Assembly: GCF_024055595.1 (NCBI RefSeq)
Contig: NZ_JAMXOF010000004.1
Location: 124,001-188,000 of the forward strand
Direction of reading: 5' to 3'
From: Mucilaginibacter aurantiaciroseus
Lineage (GTDB): Bacteria > Bacteroidota > Bacteroidia > Sphingobacteriales > Sphingobacteriaceae
Length of the DNA stretch: 64,000 nt
Shown: positions 3,851-12,595 of the stretch, one piece after another
Numbering within the stretch: the first letter of the stretch is position 1
How the letters are laid out: each line of letters begins with the position of its first letter
Position numbers and translations under genes: made by a program
The notes under the pieces: generated by a model
What the model saw: the letters and a program-made list of their open reading frames with translations, nothing else
The model's database searches: none
Told to the model about the DNA's origin: nothing

Positions 3851-4508
3851 TTATTTTTTACGTTCATCTTTCGCCACTTGTGGCACTAAAGCTTTATTGA
3901 CTTTTTTTTACTGTAATGGCTTTAGCCAGTTTAAATACTTTTTGCAGTTTTATATTTTAGCTTGATGCACCAATTTTAACATTGTAAGTACCCGCTTCTG
4001 CAACCCAGGCAGATTGCTTGGTGTTAAACGAAGCAAGATCTTTAGCGTTGATGGTAAACGTTAACACTTGCGAAGCGCCGAACTGCAATAAGGCAGTATT
4101 GGCGAACCCTTTAAGTTCTTCGGCAGGCTTATCCATGCTTTTTGCATGCGCGTTCAAATATAGTTGCGTTACTTCTTTACCGGCAACTTTACCCATATTG
4201 GTAACTTTTACGCTTGCAGTAATTTTACCTGCGAACGTTGGGCTATTCAAAGTAAGGTTGCTATAAGTAAACCCGGTGTAAGATAACCCGTAACCAAACT
4301 CATAAGCTGTAGCCTTTTTAAATGTATTGTAATAACGGTATCCAACATAAACTCCCTCTTCATAAGTAACCTCTTCCGGTATAGCTTTCATACCCAGCAT
4401 GCCTGTTGTTGCTTTGTAAGGAAACTCCTTACCCGGGAAATTCTTAGCGCTTGGCTCATCTTTATAACTTGCCGGGAACGTAGTTGCCAACTTGATGCCG
4501 GTAGCCAT
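3851..4508 (-). pseudogene. glycoside hydrolase family 3 C-terminal remnant
   Basis: Only the C-terminal part of a beta-glucosidase-type GH3 enzyme remains: the KLATTFPASYKDEPSAKNFPG segment of the second domain, the YEFGYGLSYTGFTYSNL segment, and a fibronectin-III-like C-terminal domain ending near YNVKIGASS. The catalytic (alpha/beta)8 domain is absent, and the ATG at 4508 is simply the first in the frame. An in-frame TAA at 3957-3959 interrupts the tail; the same frame continues with NIKLQKVFKLAKAITVKK to an A8 tract (3902-3909 on this strand), after which the next frame reads KALVPQVAKDERKK to a TAA at 3851-3853. That looks like the original C-terminus. Truncation, nonsense and frameshift together mark a dead gene. 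Confidence 0.85.
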
Positions 4509-4645
4509 TAAACGTTTGGCAAAGTTGCGCGCTCGCCGCTCCTTTATAAATTCGAAAAAGAAAAATACGACGAAAATTACTTTTGGGGGGTAACAAAAAT
4601 ACGTTGCGGCTTATATGGATGCAGAAACTATTAAAAATCAAAATC

Positions 4646-5031
4646 ATGAAAAAGTTATCATTATCAGTTTTAGCATTATCATTTGTTAGTTTATCAGCTT
4701 TAACCCAAACAGCCGAAGTGGAGCTTCAATGGCTGAAGCTCCCGGCCAGCCTATAGGTGGCGTAGTGGTTAAAGGAGGCCAAAACCCAACACAAGCAGCT
4801 ACCGAAGATCACCGTACTTATACAAGTGGAGGGTTTAACACTATTAAACATAACACAAATGATGCAACACGCCCGGGTAACCCAATTGGTATTATTGTTG
4901 TAAAAGGCGGTAAACCGGCAATATCTTCAGACAAAAGCATTAGCGAAAATGGCGTTAAAAAAGCGGAAGTTACCGTTGCAGTAACATGCGAGCCAATAGG
5001 CGGCATTGTTGTAAAAGGTGGGGAAAACTAA
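4646..5031 (+). pseudogene. frameshifted small secreted protein with three PIG-VVKGG repeats
   Basis: An ATG at 4646 encodes a clear signal peptide (MKKLSLSVLALSFVSLSALT) but this frame closes at a TAG at 4754-4756. The continuation lies in another frame, open from about 4690 to 5031 (first ATG at 4729, 100 codons). It contains three near-identical ten-residue units at its residues 8-17, 52-61 and 89-98: PIGGVVVKGG, PIGIIVVKGG and PIGGIVVKGG. The shift of frame is equivalent to one lost base between about 4690 and 4753. I see no XXXYYYZ slippery heptamer there, so a mutation or a sequencing error is more likely than programmed frameshifting. I do not recognise the family. A strong terminator follows, so it was a separate transcription unit. 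Confidence 0.6.
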
Positions 5032-5052
5032 CTTAAGTTAACTATATCAATA

Positions 5053-5090
5053 CAAAGCCCAATGAATTTACTTTCATTGGGCTTTGTTGT
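5053..5090 (+). terminator. Rho-independent terminator
   Basis: A perfect 14-bp stem (CAAAGCCCAATGAA at 5053-5066 with its complement at 5073-5086), a 6-base loop and following T-rich bases lie 22 bp after the secreted repeat gene. Confidence 0.85.
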
Positions 5091-5154
5091 TTATACGCTG
5101 ATGTTGTTAACACACCCTTAATATAGACTGTAAGGTGTATTAACCTTGTGCAGA

Positions 5155-5162
5155 TAGTTTTG
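5155..5162 (+). promoter_or_regulatory. Bacteroidota -7 box TAGTTTTG
   Basis: TAGTTTTG matches the TAnnTTTG consensus. Because transcription would start just after it, the in-frame GTG at 5162 cannot be the start of the next gene; this supports the ATG at 5186. No good -33 TTTG is visible at the usual spacing. Confidence 0.5.
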
Positions 5163-5185
5163 TGGTTCAAACAAAAACAAACACT

Positions 5186-6712
5186 ATGAAGCATTATTTA
5201 TTATTTGTATTCCTATGTCTTTTTATTTTTAGTTGTAAAAAAAACAAGATCACAAACGACCCCAAGCCGGTTAAGCCCGAATTTTTTGTAAATGAAGACC
5301 CTGCTACTTTCAAGGAAATAGGCTCTCTTGATATTGGCGACGTAGGCGCAGCCGAGATCAGCGCGTTCGACGCGGCAACCAACCGCCTTTTTGTAGTAAA
5401 TAATGGGGCCGTAAATAAAGTTGATGTTATCGATTTTAAAGACCCGCTGCACATGTCGGTTATCAACTCTATCAGCATGGCCCCTTATGGCGGTGCAGTA
5501 AACAGTGTGGCTGTATCTGGCGGTAAATTGGCCGCGGCTATAGAATATACCGATAAACAGGCAAATGGAAAAGTTGCTGTTTTTAAAACGGACGACCTTA
5601 GCGTAGTAAAAGTGATAAATGTTGGCGCATTGCCGGACATGGTTACCTACTCGCCCGATGGCAAGTTTATTTTGACCGCTAACGAGGGCGAACCAAATGA
5701 CGCTTACACCAATGACCCTGCCGGTACAGTATCTATCATATCGGTAGCGAACGATTACGCGGTAACTACGATTAATTTCTCTGCATTTGCCGGCCACAAG
5801 GCCGAGCTGATGGCTAAAGGCTTCAGAATATTTGGCTTGGGTAACGATTTCGTAAAAGACATCGAACCGGAATATATCACTATATCTGCCGATTCGAAAA
5901 CCGTATGGGTTACTTTGCAGGAAAATAATGGTATCGCTAAAATTGACATCGCTACTAAAACTATTACCAATATATTTCCGCTTGGCTTTAAAGATTACAA
6001 TGTAGCAGGTAACGAGATTGACCCAAGTGATAAGGACAATAAATTATTTGCTGCCAAATGGCCGGTTAAAGGTATTTACATGCCCGATGGAATTGCTGTT
6101 ATAGAGCAAGGCGGCATACCTTATTTATTTACCGCGAATGAAGGCGATGCAAGAGAATATGGTGGTTTTAGCGAGATAAAGCGAATTAAAGATATTAAGC
6201 TTGATGCAGTATTATTCCCTAATGGTGCCGACCTTAAAAAAGATGCACAGCTTGGCCGTTTAAATATAACCACCACTTTAGGTGATACAGATGGCGACGG
6301 CGATTATGACGCTTTATACTCGTTAGGCTCACGTTCTTTCAGCGTATGGAACGGGCTTGATGGTAAACAAGTGTTCGACAGCAAAAATGAGTTAGATACA
6401 AAAAATATTGCAGCAGGTGCCTATGATGATGGCCGCAGCGATGATAAATCTGTTGAGCCCGAAGGCATAGCAATTGGTAAAATAGGTAATAAAAATGTAG
6501 CTTTTGTAGGTATGGAGCGTGCGGATGCGGTTGCCGTTTATGACGTTACCGATCCAACAAAGCCTGTGTTTCTACAACTGTTAAAATGTGGCGATGCACC
6601 CGAAGGTGTATTGATCATCCAGGCAAAAAACAGCCCTACTAAAAAGAGTTTGTTAGTTGTGAGTAGCGAAAATGATGGTGTGATAAAAGTTTACACTCCC
6701 AATACCATCTAA
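5186..6712 (+). CDS. choice-of-anchor I family lipoprotein (beta-propeller)
   Basis: A lipoprotein signal (MKHYLLFVFLCLFIFSCKKN) is followed by a roughly 490-residue propeller-like region with phrases typical of the choice-of-anchor I family: TANEGEPND, DIEPEYITISADSKTVWVTLQENN, IPLGFKDY-like and LFTANEGDAREYG, plus LGDTDGDGDYDALYSLGSRSFSVW. The family is secreted or surface bound and is often annotated near alkaline phosphatases, but no enzyme activity is established. The start chosen is ATG 5186 because it gives the signal peptide directly and lies 23 bp after a -7 box. The gene stands alone between two terminators. Confidence 0.8.
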   Translation: MKHYLLFVFLCLFIFSCKKNKITNDPKPVKPEFFVNEDPATFKEIGSLDIGDVGAAEISAFDAATNRLFVVNNGAVNKVDVIDFKDPLHMSVINSISMAPYGGAVNSVAVSGGKLAAAIEYTDKQANGKVAVFKTDDLSVVKVINVGALPDMVTYSPDGKFILTANEGEPNDAYTNDPAGTVSIISVANDYAVTTINFSAFAGHKAELMAKGFRIFGLGNDFVKDIEPEYITISADSKTVWVTLQENNGIAKIDIATKTITNIFPLGFKDYNVAGNEIDPSDKDNKLFAAKWPVKGIYMPDGIAVIEQGGIPYLFTANEGDAREYGGFSEIKRIKDIKLDAVLFPNGADLKKDAQLGRLNITTTLGDTDGDGDYDALYSLGSRSFSVWNGLDGKQVFDSKNELDTKNIAAGAYDDGRSDDKSVEPEGIAIGKIGNKNVAFVGMERADAVAVYDVTDPTKPVFLQLLKCGDAPEGVLIIQAKNSPTKKSLLVVSSENDGVIKVYTPNTI

Positions 6713-6722
6713 AAAAATAATT

Positions 6723-6762
6723 AAAATTAAAAGGCTCCGATGTATCGGAGCCTTTTAATTTT
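6723..6762. terminator. bidirectional terminator
   Basis: A perfect 19-bp inverted repeat (6723-6741 with 6744-6762) containing GGCTCCGAT and flanked by A- and T-rich arms lies between convergent genes. It can serve both strands. Confidence 0.9.
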
Positions 6763-6764
6763 AA

Positions 6765-7847
6765 TTATACCTCCTCTTCTTTAAGCGATTGCATATCGAT
6801 CACATAACGAAAGCGTACCTCCTCATCCAGCATCTTATCATATGCCTTGTTAATATCCTGGATCTTGATCAACTCGGTATTGGGCAAAATACCATGCTCG
6901 GCACAAAAATCAAGTACTTCCTGTGTTTCGGCAATACCACCGATTACTGAGCCCGCAACCGAGCGACGGTGCATAGCTACTTCCATGTTGTTAGTAGGTG
7001 CCTGGTATGGTGCCAACACCCCTACTGCCACAATGGTACCATCGCGTTTTAGCAGATTGATGTATTTGTTGATGTCGTATGGGTCGGGAATGGTGTTCAA
7101 TATAAAATCGAACTTTAACTCATGCGCAGCCATCTCCTCCTCATTCTCTGATATGATCACATCTTTTGCGCCTAAAGTTTGGGCGGCTTCACGCTTTTCC
7201 TCCGTGCGGGTAATAGCGGTTACTTCGGCACCCATTGCTGCTGCAATTTGCACACCCATGTGGCCTAAACCGCCGATGCCTACAACACCAACTTTATCGC
7301 CCGGCTTTATGCCCCAGTGCTTTAATGGCGAGTACGTAGTGATACCCGCGCAAAGGATGGGCGCTGCTGCGGCAATATCCAAAGCATCCGGTATACGTAA
7401 TACAAACGATTCCTTTACTACCAGATTAGTTGAATATCCACCGTAAGTATTAAAGTCGCTACCATCAGGCTTCATATGACCGTTATAAGTCGCGGTCCAG
7501 CTTACAGGGCCTTCGCAATAATTCTCCAGTTGTTCCTGGCAGGCCGGGCACACGCCGCAAGAATCTATCATACAGCCTACACCCACGGTATCACCCACTT
7601 TAAATTTGGTTACACCACTACCTGCCGCGGTTACCTTGCCAATAATTTCATGACCGGGCACGCATGGGTATATGGTATTCTTCCAGTCGTTTTTTACCTG
7701 GTGCACATCCGAGTGGCAAACACCACAATATAAAACATCTATCAGTACCTCATCTTCTTTTGGCGCGTTACGCTCAAATTCCATTATCGAGAGGCTGTTA
7801 AATATCGAGCCTGATGTTCCGTAGCCTTTTGCTTTTATAGTTTCCAT
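6765..7847 (-). CDS. zinc-dependent NAD(P) alcohol dehydrogenase (cinnamyl-alcohol type)
   Basis: The 360-residue medium-chain dehydrogenase has the catalytic zinc ligand motif CGVCHSD (Cys41/Cys44 region), GHE at 65-67, four structural zinc cysteines (Cys97, 100, 103, 111) and the nucleotide-binding GIGGLGHMG. It matches the CAD/YahK subfamily, which reduces a broad range of aldehydes with NADPH in the cytoplasm. Length and all zinc ligands are typical, so it should be active. It is monocistronic, with the shared terminator at its 3' end and a roughly 190-bp divergent spacer to the S9 peptidase gene at its 5' end. Confidence 0.92.
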   Translation of the reverse strand: METIKAKGYGTSGSIFNSLSIMEFERNAPKEDEVLIDVLYCGVCHSDVHQVKNDWKNTIYPCVPGHEIIGKVTAAGSGVTKFKVGDTVGVGCMIDSCGVCPACQEQLENYCEGPVSWTATYNGHMKPDGSDFNTYGGYSTNLVVKESFVLRIPDALDIAAAAPILCAGITTYSPLKHWGIKPGDKVGVVGIGGLGHMGVQIAAAMGAEVTAITRTEEKREAAQTLGAKDVIISENEEEMAAHELKFDFILNTIPDPYDINKYINLLKRDGTIVAVGVLAPYQAPTNNMEVAMHRRSVAGSVIGGIAETQEVLDFCAEHGILPNTELIKIQDINKAYDKMLDEEVRFRYVIDMQSLKEEEV

Positions 7848-8035
7848 AGTTTTAGTTTGTAAATGATGTTATAATAACCGAATTAACAAACTATAGTTTT
7901 ACGATAATTTATAAAATTAAAAGAAACCAAACTCCAGTTATATGTAACAATCATTATATTTATTACAGCTTATAAAATTGTTAAAATGCTTTACTTTAGT
8001 ATCTTCAAATGTTATTACTGACTAACTGATAAATA

Positions 8036-10363
8036 ATGAACAAATACTTACTAACGGTAACGGCTTTGGCGATGGCTTTGGGAACCAACGCACAGCAAAA
8101 TGCCCCCATAACCGCTAAGGATTATGAGCGTGCCGAGGTTTTTTTAGGCTACAATACTTCCCCTTTGGTTGCCAGGGCAAACGTTTCCCCTAATTGGCTC
8201 CCGGGCGATAAATTCTGGTATAGTGTATCAACCGCGCAAGGCAACGAATTTATACTGGTTGACCCCGCTAAAAAAACACGTACCACCGCGTTCGATTCAC
8301 AGGAACTTGCCGCAGCTTTATCAACCGCAACCGGCAAAACTTATGATGCTAACAAATTGCCATTTCAAAGCATTAATTATTCGGCCGATGGCAAATCTGT
8401 TTTATTTTCTGTAGATGCTAAAAAATGGGCATATAACCCGGCAACTAACCAGTTGACCGCCGATACTTCAAAAGCTGTTGCGGGTAAAACGGCTACTTTA
8501 ACAGGCCGTGCCGCACGTGGTGGTGGCAACGAGGTGATGTCGCCCGATTGTAGCAAAGCTGTTTTTATAAAAGACTATAACCTTTGGGTGCGTGATGTCG
8601 CCAGCGGCAAACAAACCCAACTGACTACCGATGGCGTAAAAGATTTTGGCTATGCCACCGACAACGCCGGATGGACCATGAGCGACAGGCCGATTGTATC
8701 GTGGTCGCCTGACTCTAAGAAAGTGGCAACCTTTCAGCAGGACCAGCGAAAGGTGAGCGACATGTACCTGGTTACTACCAACGTGGGTAAACCAACCTTA
8801 ATGTCCTGGAAATATCCATTGCCGGGAGATAAAGATATTGTTACTATCCAACGGGTTATTATTGATGTAGAGAACCCAAAAGTTATCCGCTTTAATATCG
8901 CGCCCGATCCGCACCGTGCTACGCTGAGCGATGATATAGCCAGCAGCGGCAGCTTTGATGATGCCGACTGGAAAGCCGATGGCAGCGAGTTTGCATTTGT
9001 ATCAACCTCTCGCGACCATAAGAATGAGAAATTCCGAATAGCAAATGCCACTACCGGTGCCGTACGCGAGGTATTTGAAGAAACCGTTAAAACTCAATAT
9101 GAATCGGGTTGGGACGCCATCAACTGGCGTTACCTGCCTGCATCTAAAGAGATCATTTGGTTCTCGGAACGCGACAACTGGGGGCACCTGTACCTTTACG
9201 ATGCCACAACCGGCAAACTAAAGAACCAGATCACTAAAGGCGATTTTGTAGTTACTAAACTGCTAAAAGTTGATAAAAAAACCCGTACCCTATACTTTAC
9301 TGCAGGTGGCCGCGAGCCGGGCAACCCATACTTTTCACACTTTTATAAAATTGGTTTCAATGGTAAAGGTTTAACCTTGCTGACGCCAGAGGCTGGCAAC
9401 CACAATGTTAACTTCTCCCCAAATGAAAATTACTTTGTGGATACCTACTCACAGCCCGATGTACCGCCGGTTACCGTTCTGCGCGATATGAAAGGCAACT
9501 TGTTAGCCACTTTAGAAAAAACGGACGTATCGAGGCTTGCCGCTACAGGCTGGAAAGCGCCTGCTCCTGTTAAACTAAAAGCACATGATGGCACAACCGA
9601 TATTTATGGCCTGGTATTTACGCCAACCAAAATGGATGCAGGTAAAAAATATCCGGTTATAGATTATATTTACCCTGGCCCGCAAGGTGGTGGTGTAGGT
9701 AGCTGGTCGTTCATCGCATCCCGTGGCGACCACCAGGCACTTGCCGAACTGGGCTTTATTGTTGTAGTGATAGAAGGCACCAGCAACCCGCTACGTTCAA
9801 AAAGCTTTCATGATATGAACTATGGTAATATGGGCGACAACACCCTGCCGGATCAGATTACAGGCATTAAGCAGTTAGCTGCCAAATACCCTATAGATAC
9901 TACTAAAGTGGGTATCTGGGGGCACTCTGGTGGTGGTTTTGCTACTGCTACCGCGATGTTTAAATACCCTGATTTCTTTAAGGTAGGGATCTCAGAATCT
10001 GGCAACCACGAGAACCGCAACTACGAGGATGATTGGGGCGAACGCTACAATGGTTTAGTAGAAAACTCAAACTACGATGCACAGGCAAACCAAAACTTTG
10101 CCAAAAACCTAAAGGGTAAACTGATGCTTGCCCACGGTATGATGGACAACAACGTGCCACCATACAACACCCTGTTAGTTGCCGAAGCATTGGAGAAAGC
10201 CAACAAAAGCTTCGACCTGGTGATATTCCCTAACAGCGCGCATGGATACGGCCAGTATTCATACTACATGATGCGCCGCCGCTGGGATTATTTTGTGAAG
10301 AACCTGTTAGGTGCCGAGCCACCTTATGATTACGTTCTTGGGCCCAAATCGACCAAACGCTAA
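8036..10363 (+). CDS. dipeptidyl-peptidase IV-like S9 peptidase, exported
   Basis: A 20-residue signal peptide (MNKYLLTVTALAMALGTNAQ) precedes an eight-bladed-propeller domain and a C-terminal alpha/beta hydrolase of the prolyl oligopeptidase family. The catalytic triad is visible: Ser at about 631 in GHSGGG, Asp about 704 in MMDNNVPP and His about 736 in SAHGYG. Bacteroidota DPP-IV enzymes release X-Pro dipeptides from peptides in the periplasm. Total length of 775 residues is slightly longer than average but typical. A terminator follows directly, so it is a single-gene unit. Confidence 0.92.
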   Translation: MNKYLLTVTALAMALGTNAQQNAPITAKDYERAEVFLGYNTSPLVARANVSPNWLPGDKFWYSVSTAQGNEFILVDPAKKTRTTAFDSQELAAALSTATGKTYDANKLPFQSINYSADGKSVLFSVDAKKWAYNPATNQLTADTSKAVAGKTATLTGRAARGGGNEVMSPDCSKAVFIKDYNLWVRDVASGKQTQLTTDGVKDFGYATDNAGWTMSDRPIVSWSPDSKKVATFQQDQRKVSDMYLVTTNVGKPTLMSWKYPLPGDKDIVTIQRVIIDVENPKVIRFNIAPDPHRATLSDDIASSGSFDDADWKADGSEFAFVSTSRDHKNEKFRIANATTGAVREVFEETVKTQYESGWDAINWRYLPASKEIIWFSERDNWGHLYLYDATTGKLKNQITKGDFVVTKLLKVDKKTRTLYFTAGGREPGNPYFSHFYKIGFNGKGLTLLTPEAGNHNVNFSPNENYFVDTYSQPDVPPVTVLRDMKGNLLATLEKTDVSRLAATGWKAPAPVKLKAHDGTTDIYGLVFTPTKMDAGKKYPVIDYIYPGPQGGGVGSWSFIASRGDHQALAELGFIVVVIEGTSNPLRSKSFHDMNYGNMGDNTLPDQITGIKQLAAKYPIDTTKVGIWGHSGGGFATATAMFKYPDFFKVGISESGNHENRNYEDDWGERYNGLVENSNYDAQANQNFAKNLKGKLMLAHGMMDNNVPPYNTLLVAEALEKANKSFDLVIFPNSAHGYGQYSYYMMRRRWDYFVKNLLGAEPPYDYVLGPKSTKR

Positions 10364-10385
10364 ATCAGCGAAAAATACCAATAGT

Positions 10386-10414
10386 AAAGCCCCGATCACA
10401 TCGGGGCTTTTTTT
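10386..10414 (+). terminator. Rho-independent terminator
   Basis: Stem AAAGCCCCGAT (10386-10396), loop CAC, complementary arm to 10410, then TTTT. It lies 22 bp after the S9 peptidase stop. Confidence 0.9.
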
Positions 10415-10419
10415 GTAAA

Positions 10420-10909
10420 TTATTGTGCCGATGGCGGAGGCGTTTTTGTACCCCAATTTGTATTGGGCTGGCTGCCCATCACAAAGGTTAGCTTGCCGCC
10501 TTTTATTAATTCATCGCGGTAAAGCCAGCAATTATCAAGCGGCGTGCCATTAAACTCGGCTGATTGGATGTATAAATTGTCCCTACCGTTGTTTTCGGTT
10601 TCGATAATTAGGATTTTGCCATCGCCCAGTTTAATGGTTGCTTTGACAAATATCGGGCTGCCCAATTCAATTATCGGGCGCAGGTCTGTAAAACCTTTCA
10701 CATCAAACAGGCTCAAAGCATTTATTACATACTTGGAACCAAGTTGCCCCCGGTCTTCGTCCTTCCCGTAACCATAACCGTGGGTAGGTTCGATACCGTA
10801 AAATTCCTGACCTATAAGCCTTGCCCATTTTTGCGTTAGCCATGGCTAGCCCAAGAAATTGAATAACCAGCTCAGTTGTTCTGCCTGCTCTAATGTAACA
10901 CTTAAAATT
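10420..10909 (-). pseudogene. GH92 alpha-mannosidase C-terminal remnant with a nonsense codon
   Basis: The frame ending at 10420 carries the C-terminal signature of family GH92 exo-acting alpha-mannosidases: IGQEFYGIEPTHGYGYGKDE, then DRGQLGSKYVINALSLFDVK, the PIIELGSPIFVKATIKLGDG strand and a GGKLTFVMG end. The acidic KDEDRGQ stretch corresponds to the family's catalytic-base region. Going upstream the frame meets a TAG at 10846-10848, yet the same frame beyond it still reads like GH92 (LEQAEQLSWLFNFLG) to about 10909. Roughly 600 residues expected upstream are missing; 10910-11074 shows nothing recognisable. This is a truncated, mutated gene. Confidence 0.85.
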
Positions 10910-11074
10910 ATTTGATTAGTTGAGTACTAAGAACAGCCCCGGCTTAACTAATATTTAAATTATTTGACTCATTATGGGTGTAAATAACATACGTTTTAAA
11001 ATGAGAAACTAAGAAAAACGCTCAACTTAACAGATATTAATATCTAAATATTATTTACAGGAAATATTTGCGTG

Positions 11075-12595
11075 TTACTTTATATAACCGCCTTGGTTAT
11101 CAAGTTCTTTTAAGAACTTTTCAGCATTCGCCAAATGTTTATCACGCTTTTCGGAAGCCATTTTATCGAAGGTTTTAACGAGCATGCCCAGCCTCGGGTT
11201 TTGCAGGAAGAAGTTGCGATGCACATGCATAAACCGCCAGAACATGCCATCCCAGGTTTCCTGCCAGTCGCCTTTTGGCCAGTCGCCCATTTTCAAGAGA
11301 TAGTTGCTACCGCTGATATAGGGCTTGGTTGTCATCAGCCCGCCATCGGCAAACTGCGTCATACTATAGGTATTGGGCACCATTACCCAGTCGTAGGCAT
11401 CAATATACATCTCCATAAACCATTGATAAACTTGGTCCGGGTCAAACTCGCAAAGCAGCATAAAATTGCCCATTACCATCAGCCGTTCTATATGGTGACT
11501 GTAGCCTGTATGCAAAAGCTTTTTAATAACCACATCTACCGGCACAATCCCGGTTTCTCCTTTCCAGAATGAGGCGGGAATCTTCCTTTTAAAGCCCCAG
11601 TAGTTTTTGGTACGTTGTTTTACCCCTTCGCGCTCGTAAACAATATGGATAAACTCACGCCAGCCCATAATTTGGCGAATAAAACCCTCGAGTGAGTTTA
11701 GCGGGATACTATTCTCTGCGGCAAAATCAAGCGCCCCATCAATCACCTGCTGCGGGTTTAGCAGGCCAATATTAAGCATGGGCGTGAGTACCGAATGATA
11801 CAGGAAACTTTGTTGCGACACCATTGCATCTTCATAGATCCCAAAGTTATGGAAACGCTGTTTTAGAAAGTTTTGCAGCCATTGCTCAGCCTCCTGATAA
11901 TTAACCGGGTAAAAGCCACCAAGGTTACCAAACGGCGATGCGGTGCCTCCGTAATTGTCCGGATACTGTTTATCAACCCATTGCTGCGCATCGGTTACGT
12001 ACTTGTTTTCGGCAGGTACATCTAACACGGGCACCGCTTCATTTTTTGGAAACTTCAACCTATTTTCGCTGTCGTATGTCCATTTGCCGCCTAAGGGTTT
12101 GTCATTGGCTTCAATTAGTATTTTGCGCTGTTTCCGCTGTGCGATATAAAAATCGGTTTGGAAATAGGTTTTGCGGCCATCAAAATAATCGGCCACCTCA
12201 TCGGTGCTGTTGAGGTAATTGGGACTGCGGTATTTTGCTAACGCGATGTTATATTTAGCGCAGCCGCTATCTAAACGTTTCTCCAGCCAATAGTCAGCAA
12301 CATCGGCATAGTGGATTTTCTCCACCCCTTGTTTAGCCAGGTGCGGAATAAGTTTACGTACATCACAAAGTTTTTCCGTAGCTTCAATATACTCTATTTT
12401 GAAGCCTTTATCCCGCAAAAAATCAGCATAAAACTGCATGGATGCGCGGTGGAGCACCAGTTTCATTTTATGAAAAGTAAATTGGTTAAAATAAAGCTCC
12501 TCTTCTATCAGATAAACCAAACGATCATCTTTCACGGCCGGATGCTTCTCAAACAACTGGTGCGGAAAAATTAACGTGATACTTGTTGCGTGCAT
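11075..12595 (-). CDS. photolyase/cryptochrome-related protein (FeS-BCP type)
   Basis: The 506-residue protein starts MHATSITLIFPHQLFEKHPA and matches the deoxyribodipyrimidine photolyase-related family (FeS bacterial cryptochromes and photolyases, (6-4) repair type). It has an N-terminal Rossmann region followed by a helical FAD-binding domain with SYHHIERLMVMGNFMLLCEF and a C-terminal segment with PNTYSMTQFADGGLMTTKPY typical of the family. The role would be light-driven repair of UV photoproducts. The gene is intact although both neighbours are dead: GH92 on one side, a DUF3108-like remnant on the other. It appears to be monocistronic. Confidence 0.85.
   Translation of the reverse strand: MHATSITLIFPHQLFEKHPAVKDDRLVYLIEEELYFNQFTFHKMKLVLHRASMQFYADFLRDKGFKIEYIEATEKLCDVRKLIPHLAKQGVEKIHYADVADYWLEKRLDSGCAKYNIALAKYRSPNYLNSTDEVADYFDGRKTYFQTDFYIAQRKQRKILIEANDKPLGGKWTYDSENRLKFPKNEAVPVLDVPAENKYVTDAQQWVDKQYPDNYGGTASPFGNLGGFYPVNYQEAEQWLQNFLKQRFHNFGIYEDAMVSQQSFLYHSVLTPMLNIGLLNPQQVIDGALDFAAENSIPLNSLEGFIRQIMGWREFIHIVYEREGVKQRTKNYWGFKRKIPASFWKGETGIVPVDVVIKKLLHTGYSHHIERLMVMGNFMLLCEFDPDQVYQWFMEMYIDAYDWVMVPNTYSMTQFADGGLMTTKPYISGSNYLLKMGDWPKGDWQETWDGMFWRFMHVHRNFFLQNPRLGMLVKTFDKMASEKRDKHLANAEKFLKELDNQGGYIK

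Follow-up and report, generated by a model that had tools for sequence, protein, structure and literature searches.

The locus at positions 4646-5031 of the window, by which we mean the whole 64-kb stretch of DNA analysed here, raises the question of why a small gene with the start of a secreted protein and three near-identical peptide units should carry a one-base break in its reading frame, and to which family such a gene belongs. We consider it likely that the gene once belonged to a regulon governed by an ECF sigma factor and is now orphaned and decayed.

The window gene and its neighbours

The window gene is a compact one-gene unit on the forward strand, with a promoter (4587-4616), a start codon at 4646, a stop codon at 5029-5031 and a terminator-like hairpin (5052-5087). 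Its first frame (4646-4756) comprises 36 codons followed by a stop and begins, as judged by eye, with a signal-peptide-like sequence. The second frame (4690-5031, 113 codons) is offset from the first by one base, overlaps it from 4690 to 4756 and carries, in translation, unit 1, PIGGVVVKGG (4750-4779); the cassette EDHRTYTSGG (4804-4833), whose counterpart in relatives reads DEHRTYTGGR or DDHRTYTGGR; unit 2, PIGIIVVKGG (4882-4911); the cassette KSISENGVKK (4933-4962), corresponding to KSISEKGIKR in L003 and others; and unit 3, PIGGIVVKGG (4993-5022). The PIG-xxVVKGG units start 44 and 37 residues apart. The original prediction had described the signal peptide (within 4646-4756), the three units at this spacing (within 4750-5022) and a one-base break at about 4690-4753, all of which we recover; its inventory overlooked the HRTY and KSIS cassettes, the promoter and the hairpin. 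The latter has 15 pairs and starts 21 bases past the stop codon; one such hairpin was found against 0.9 expected in shuffled sequence, although its stem is long.

The gene thus retains promoter, signal peptide, five cassettes and hairpin. Membership of the cassette family was defined by at least two shared cassettes behind a signal peptide, in a frame unbroken from the signal peptide through the cassettes; the window gene has PIGG three times, HRTY and KSIS behind a signal peptide recognised by eye, and its frame changes within 4690-4756. As the frame is broken, no full secreted product is expected. Between any two of the units, 7 to 11 of the 30 bases have changed, yet just 1 or 2 residues, and the nonsynonymous codon differences in the three pairs (2, 1 and 1) fall short of the 6.2, 4.8 and 4.3 obtained under simulated random substitution (P = 0.0001, 0.0004 and 0.0028). 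Since these differences are mostly silent, the sequence was selected as protein before the frame broke, and the units bear the mark of past purifying selection.

The window protein has no match among the Pfam and NCBIfam profiles, PF13620 included (E <= 1), so that its description as unlike any family known to the original prediction was fair, and an Rfam scan of 3900-5300 returned no match at the gathering score. Multi-core precursors of peptide natural products are judged by the presence of a peptide-modifying enzyme next door. The six neighbours from 3957 to 12595 are a GH3 fragment, a choice-of-anchor I protein, an ADH, an S9 peptidase, a GH92 fragment and a photolyase-related gene, the region left of 3957 having been viewed by eye only. 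The GH3-type glycosidase fragment (3957-4508, reverse strand, 183 codons) is C-terminal, consists of the Fn3-like domain only and ends just upstream of the cassette gene; in related genes elsewhere in the same genome the open frame runs to 781 and 806 codons. The GH92 glycosidase fragment (10423-10716, reverse strand), likewise C-terminal, covers profile positions 396-464 of 464 and is a further sign of gene loss near the cassette gene.

Relatives and cassette architecture

Within the genus, 11 of 149 genomes, the window's included, matched at E <= 0.01, and six were accepted as carrying family members: the window's genome (G000), G021, G025, G074, G096 and G100. The others (G081, G095, G144, G145 and G162) were not retained, the matching loci (L057-L061) containing neither the searched cassette strings nor two cassettes. 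Counting the window genome in each case, matches occurred in 31 of 399 genomes of a family-level sample and in 5 of 395 genomes of a phylum-level sample that overlaps it. One further match, L004 (E 6e-4, 28% identity), was inspected and not accepted as a relative, and weaker ones (E about 0.03-1), mostly frames of about 700 residues or deaminase-like proteins as judged by eye from those translated, were set aside. No second family copy was found in the window's own genome, where the only other match was weak (E 0.73).

The closest comparison is offered by G021, which encodes an intact relative of 109 aa with a signal peptide almost the same as that of the window gene; from promoter to early coding sequence (4585-4715 of the window) the two share 82% DNA identity. 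An S9 peptidase gene lies downstream of the cassette gene in both, adjoining it in G021 and separated from it by two genes in the window, and the order of S9 peptidase and then photolyase-like gene is common to G021, G096 and the window. The same S9 peptidase adjoins a member of 98 aa that has no PIGG unit in G096 and, in G100, a protein of 665 aa whose N-terminal region resembles a barrel and whose long tail is made of cassettes. Both G100 and G096 also encode short proteins with three PIGG units, so that the window is not alone in having three. Members of 150 and 166 aa occur in Mucilaginibacter pedocola and M. gilvus, and longer ones in a Pedobacter, a Niabella and several MAGs. Carriage on plasmids was rejected for the long relative L039, which matched none of 72,556 plasmid records. 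The cassette proteins, that of the window gene among them, constitute a real family, apparently undescribed as judged by the Pfam and NCBIfam profiles and by the part of the open-access literature covered.

Family members are assembled from short cassettes, namely PGQPIGGIVVKGGKNPGG, HRTYTGGRKNE, KSINEKGVKR, RISMNVTxxKQTQGxxFGEKV, DFNTTRSNRDNR, SSSYAAGR, GWDGSVKGG and NPLY, the combination of which varies gene by gene. In long relatives, the stretch opened by PIGGIVVKGGKNPGG matches PF13620 (CarboxypepD_reg) and PF17210 (SdrD_B), above the cut-off in several, whereas neither profile matches the window protein or the scanned short relatives L035, L036, L048 and L073, all of which keep just the first piece. 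Long relatives probably add an outer-membrane barrel: the model of L039 (mean pLDDT 42.5, five sequences) places one at residues 22-261 with moderate confidence, followed by a tail without a confident model. The top Foldseek matches of this barrel are small outer-membrane beta barrels of the OmpA and TtoA kind; these matches are weak (the best has E 0.0012, so that none reaches 0.001), and the window gene, unlike these proteins, has no barrel at all. On account of the signal peptides and the barrel model, intact cassette proteins would be expected to act at the cell surface. The C-termini of six long relatives (L037, L038, L040, L042, L044 and L084) share a conserved SGLKD(T/V)LKTNV tail that may be a signal for sorting or binding.

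A common promoter and an ECF sigma locus

The promoter of the window gene, consisting of GGGGTAACA as the -35-like element and TTATAT as the -10-like element (4587-4616, forward strand), lies 30 bases ahead of the start codon and is common to relatives. Its consensus, GGGGTAACA-N15-T(G/T)ATATA with a spacer of about 15, is intact in the window and present in 19 of the 32 upstream regions displayed for the family, several columns of this conservation being preset by the search pattern; the 13 regions without it comprise 10 from one Pedobacter protein group plus L037, L040 and L099. The pattern GGGTAACAAA-N12-18-TATA is found at a single place in the 64-kb window (0.01 expected), and GGGTAACA-N15-17-TKATAT occurs once in the window's whole genome, where the reversed-pattern control gave 2. 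Across six whole genomes the strict promoter has 17 sites, seven at cassette genes, four at one lipoprotein and six elsewhere, against 3 sites for the reversed pattern, and one cassette gene, L106 in G096, was discovered via the promoter alone. Over 33 loci (536 kb), 26 sites were found, at 24 cassette genes, one lipoprotein and one place elsewhere (local-shuffle mean 2.3, largest 4), a count that is no specificity test because nearly all of these loci were picked for containing a family gene. L073 and L137 have some DNA in common, and L127 has a promoter under a looser pattern that the stricter 33-locus pattern missed.

The lipoprotein gene that shares the promoter and a neighbouring ECF sigma gene are divergently oriented. 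The sigma gene is followed by an anti-sigma-like gene whose product has TPR-like repeats; downstream of the lipoprotein lie genes for a PKD/DUF7619/DUF7849 protein and for a TPR-CHAT protein with a signal-peptide-like start. Three Mucilaginibacter genomes (L138 2184-9455, L199 and L200) show this arrangement, with the ECF sigma and anti-sigma genes on one side and, pointing the other way, those for the lipoprotein, a PKD outer-membrane-like protein and a secreted TPR-CHAT protein. The promoter precedes the lipoprotein at all 31 loci examined, in several genera, 30 of them in a 3.5-kb stretch and the last in a longer one; at loci holding a 32%-identical sigma paralogue, any promoter match occurred in 4 of 24. 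The 31 were drawn from 41 sigma loci (40 at E <= 1e-60 and a broken copy in G088), with 34 weaker matches (E 1e-55 to 1e-42) outside the count. In most of L143, L144 and L171-L194 the sigma gene itself contains a string similar to the motif, GGTAACA...TTAT, which probably reflects coding constraint or, alternatively, an internal promoter.

Sigma factor and cassette genes co-occur. For this comparison the family-level matches were divided into 18 genomes with promoter-bearing cassette genes and 11 of the promoter-less Pedobacter group, G172 (cut by a contig end) and G409 (matching at 1-49 only) having been excluded and G309 assigned to the promoter-less group from its match alone. A sigma orthologue (E <= 1e-60, a cut-off set after the list had been inspected) is present in 40 of the 399 genomes, namely in 16 of the 18 as against 24 of the 381 others (Fisher P = 6e-16, kinship ignored), and in none of the 11. 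At E <= 1e-40 the sigma factor is found in 75 genomes, 16 of 18 versus 59 of 381 (P = 7e-11, kinship again ignored). Within the genus it occurs in 4 of 6 cassette genomes versus 1 of 143 others (G087), which gives P = 4e-6 with the broken G088 copy excluded and kinship ignored. The two cassette genomes without an orthologue are the window's genome and G074; conversely, 24 genomes have the sigma factor and no promoter-bearing cassette gene detected with the cassette model used. What emerges is a patchy, unannotated, modular family of secreted proteins in the Sphingobacteriaceae that is tied to a single ECF sigma factor and a single promoter.

In comparison with known ECF sigma/anti-sigma pairs, the linked sigma factor passes the sigma70-ECF cut-off (TIGR02937, 68.1 versus 42.9 bits) but falls below that of the nearest Bacteroidota subfamily, Sig70_bacteroi1 (TIGR02985, 54.3 versus 126.4), and the gene after it matches the anti-sigma model weakly (23.7 versus a cut-off of 100). 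No description of this regulon was found in the portion of the open-access literature covered. Surface proteins of Bacteroidota are described as being under an ECF sigma factor also in P. gingivalis, in the regulon of type IX secretion (PorXY-SigP; PMC7712824), the cargo of which differs.

Loss of the sigma locus and the fate of the window gene

Aligned with G096, the window's genome keeps the flanking genes and lacks about 6 kb, the alignment ending at L138 2828 and resuming at 9082. Broken remnants stand at both edges. On one side the CHAT gene is reduced to its C-terminal part (residues 660-881, with two internal stops), and on the other so is the anti-sigma gene (residues 107-242, with one internal stop). 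The scar lies at G000:C2 about 447118-448160 (L198 10118-11160), with the TPR-CHAT and anti-sigma remnants facing each other. Sigma factor, lipoprotein and PKD genes are missing from this genome, its best sigma match being a paralogue of only 32% identity, so that of the two marks of the regulon, the promoter and a cognate sigma factor in the genome, it has the first alone.

The regulon model that we favour runs as follows. In intact relatives the dedicated ECF sigma factor, adjoined by its anti-sigma-like gene, would read the GGGGTAACA-type promoter and probably transcribes the divergent lipoprotein gene together with single genes, scattered over the genome, that encode secreted or outer-membrane proteins made of short interchangeable peptide cassettes. 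The window's genome would have lost the sigma gene, the lipoprotein gene and the greater part of the anti-sigma gene, which a single deletion would explain most simply. The window gene would thereafter have been a target without its presumed controller, on which selection may have relaxed, and its frame would then have decayed. The apparent regulon would thus have been caught while decaying, with its controller gone and one target left, promoter whole and frame broken.

The original prediction had asked whether this was a recent pseudogene or a gene still live, which was the right question. Homologues with intact frames exist, and the evidence favours real decay. That the gene is intact and live, the break being a sequencing or assembly error and the promoter being read by another sigma factor, appears unlikely. 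A single base is involved, promoter, cassettes and hairpin are otherwise whole, and in G074, which lacks the sigma orthologue, a promoter-bearing gene has remained intact, so that loss of the sigma factor need not mean decay. Against an error speak the quality of the assembly, which comprises 9 contigs at a rated completeness of 99.63%, and the open frames of large neighbours such as the 775-codon S9 gene. Real decay is preferred because the presumed controller's locus is gone with broken remnants left, because the likely signal-peptidase position reads ALT in the window gene versus ALA in G021 (by eye), and because the GH3 and GH92 genes close by are fragmentary; frame break, residue change and fragments together are consistent with ongoing decay, and we infer that the break resides in the cell rather than in the assembly.

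Quite unlikely, too, is a link between promoter and sigma factor that is coincidental or driven by lineage, the promoter having spread by gene duplication or being recognised by a different sigma factor. Both sigma and cassette genes have a patchy distribution and possibly share lineages, and G074 has the promoter without the sigma factor; however, the promoter also precedes the cassette-free lipoprotein beside the sigma gene at every locus examined, and the promoter-less group lacks the sigma factor throughout. Under the regulon model, one may further speculate, though we hold this extension to be doubtful, that lipoprotein, PKD outer-membrane protein, secreted TPR-CHAT (caspase-like) protease and modular cassette proteins would form a sigma-run surface system with the interchangeable and strongly conserved cassettes as processed or recognised surface peptides, and that the window genome, having lost the controller, would be losing the cassettes.

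Programmed -1 ribosomal frameshifting, which the overlap of the two frames at an offset of one base could accommodate, is very improbable, given that the intact relatives examined encode their cassettes in one frame and that the X XXY YYZ pattern has a single instance with its start in 4646-4759, CCCAAAC at 4704, which is in the wrong frame; the earlier statement that no slippery heptamer was found was right in substance. A chance open frame without biological history, which the original prediction had allowed for should reads agree with the break and homologues be absent, is refuted by the intact homologues with the same cassettes that the search of relatives turned up and by the synonymous bias among the units.

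The controller has apparently been lost a second time at G088:C1 642852-643396 (L145, L200), where the orthologous sigma gene is broken and the lipoprotein gene retains its promoter.
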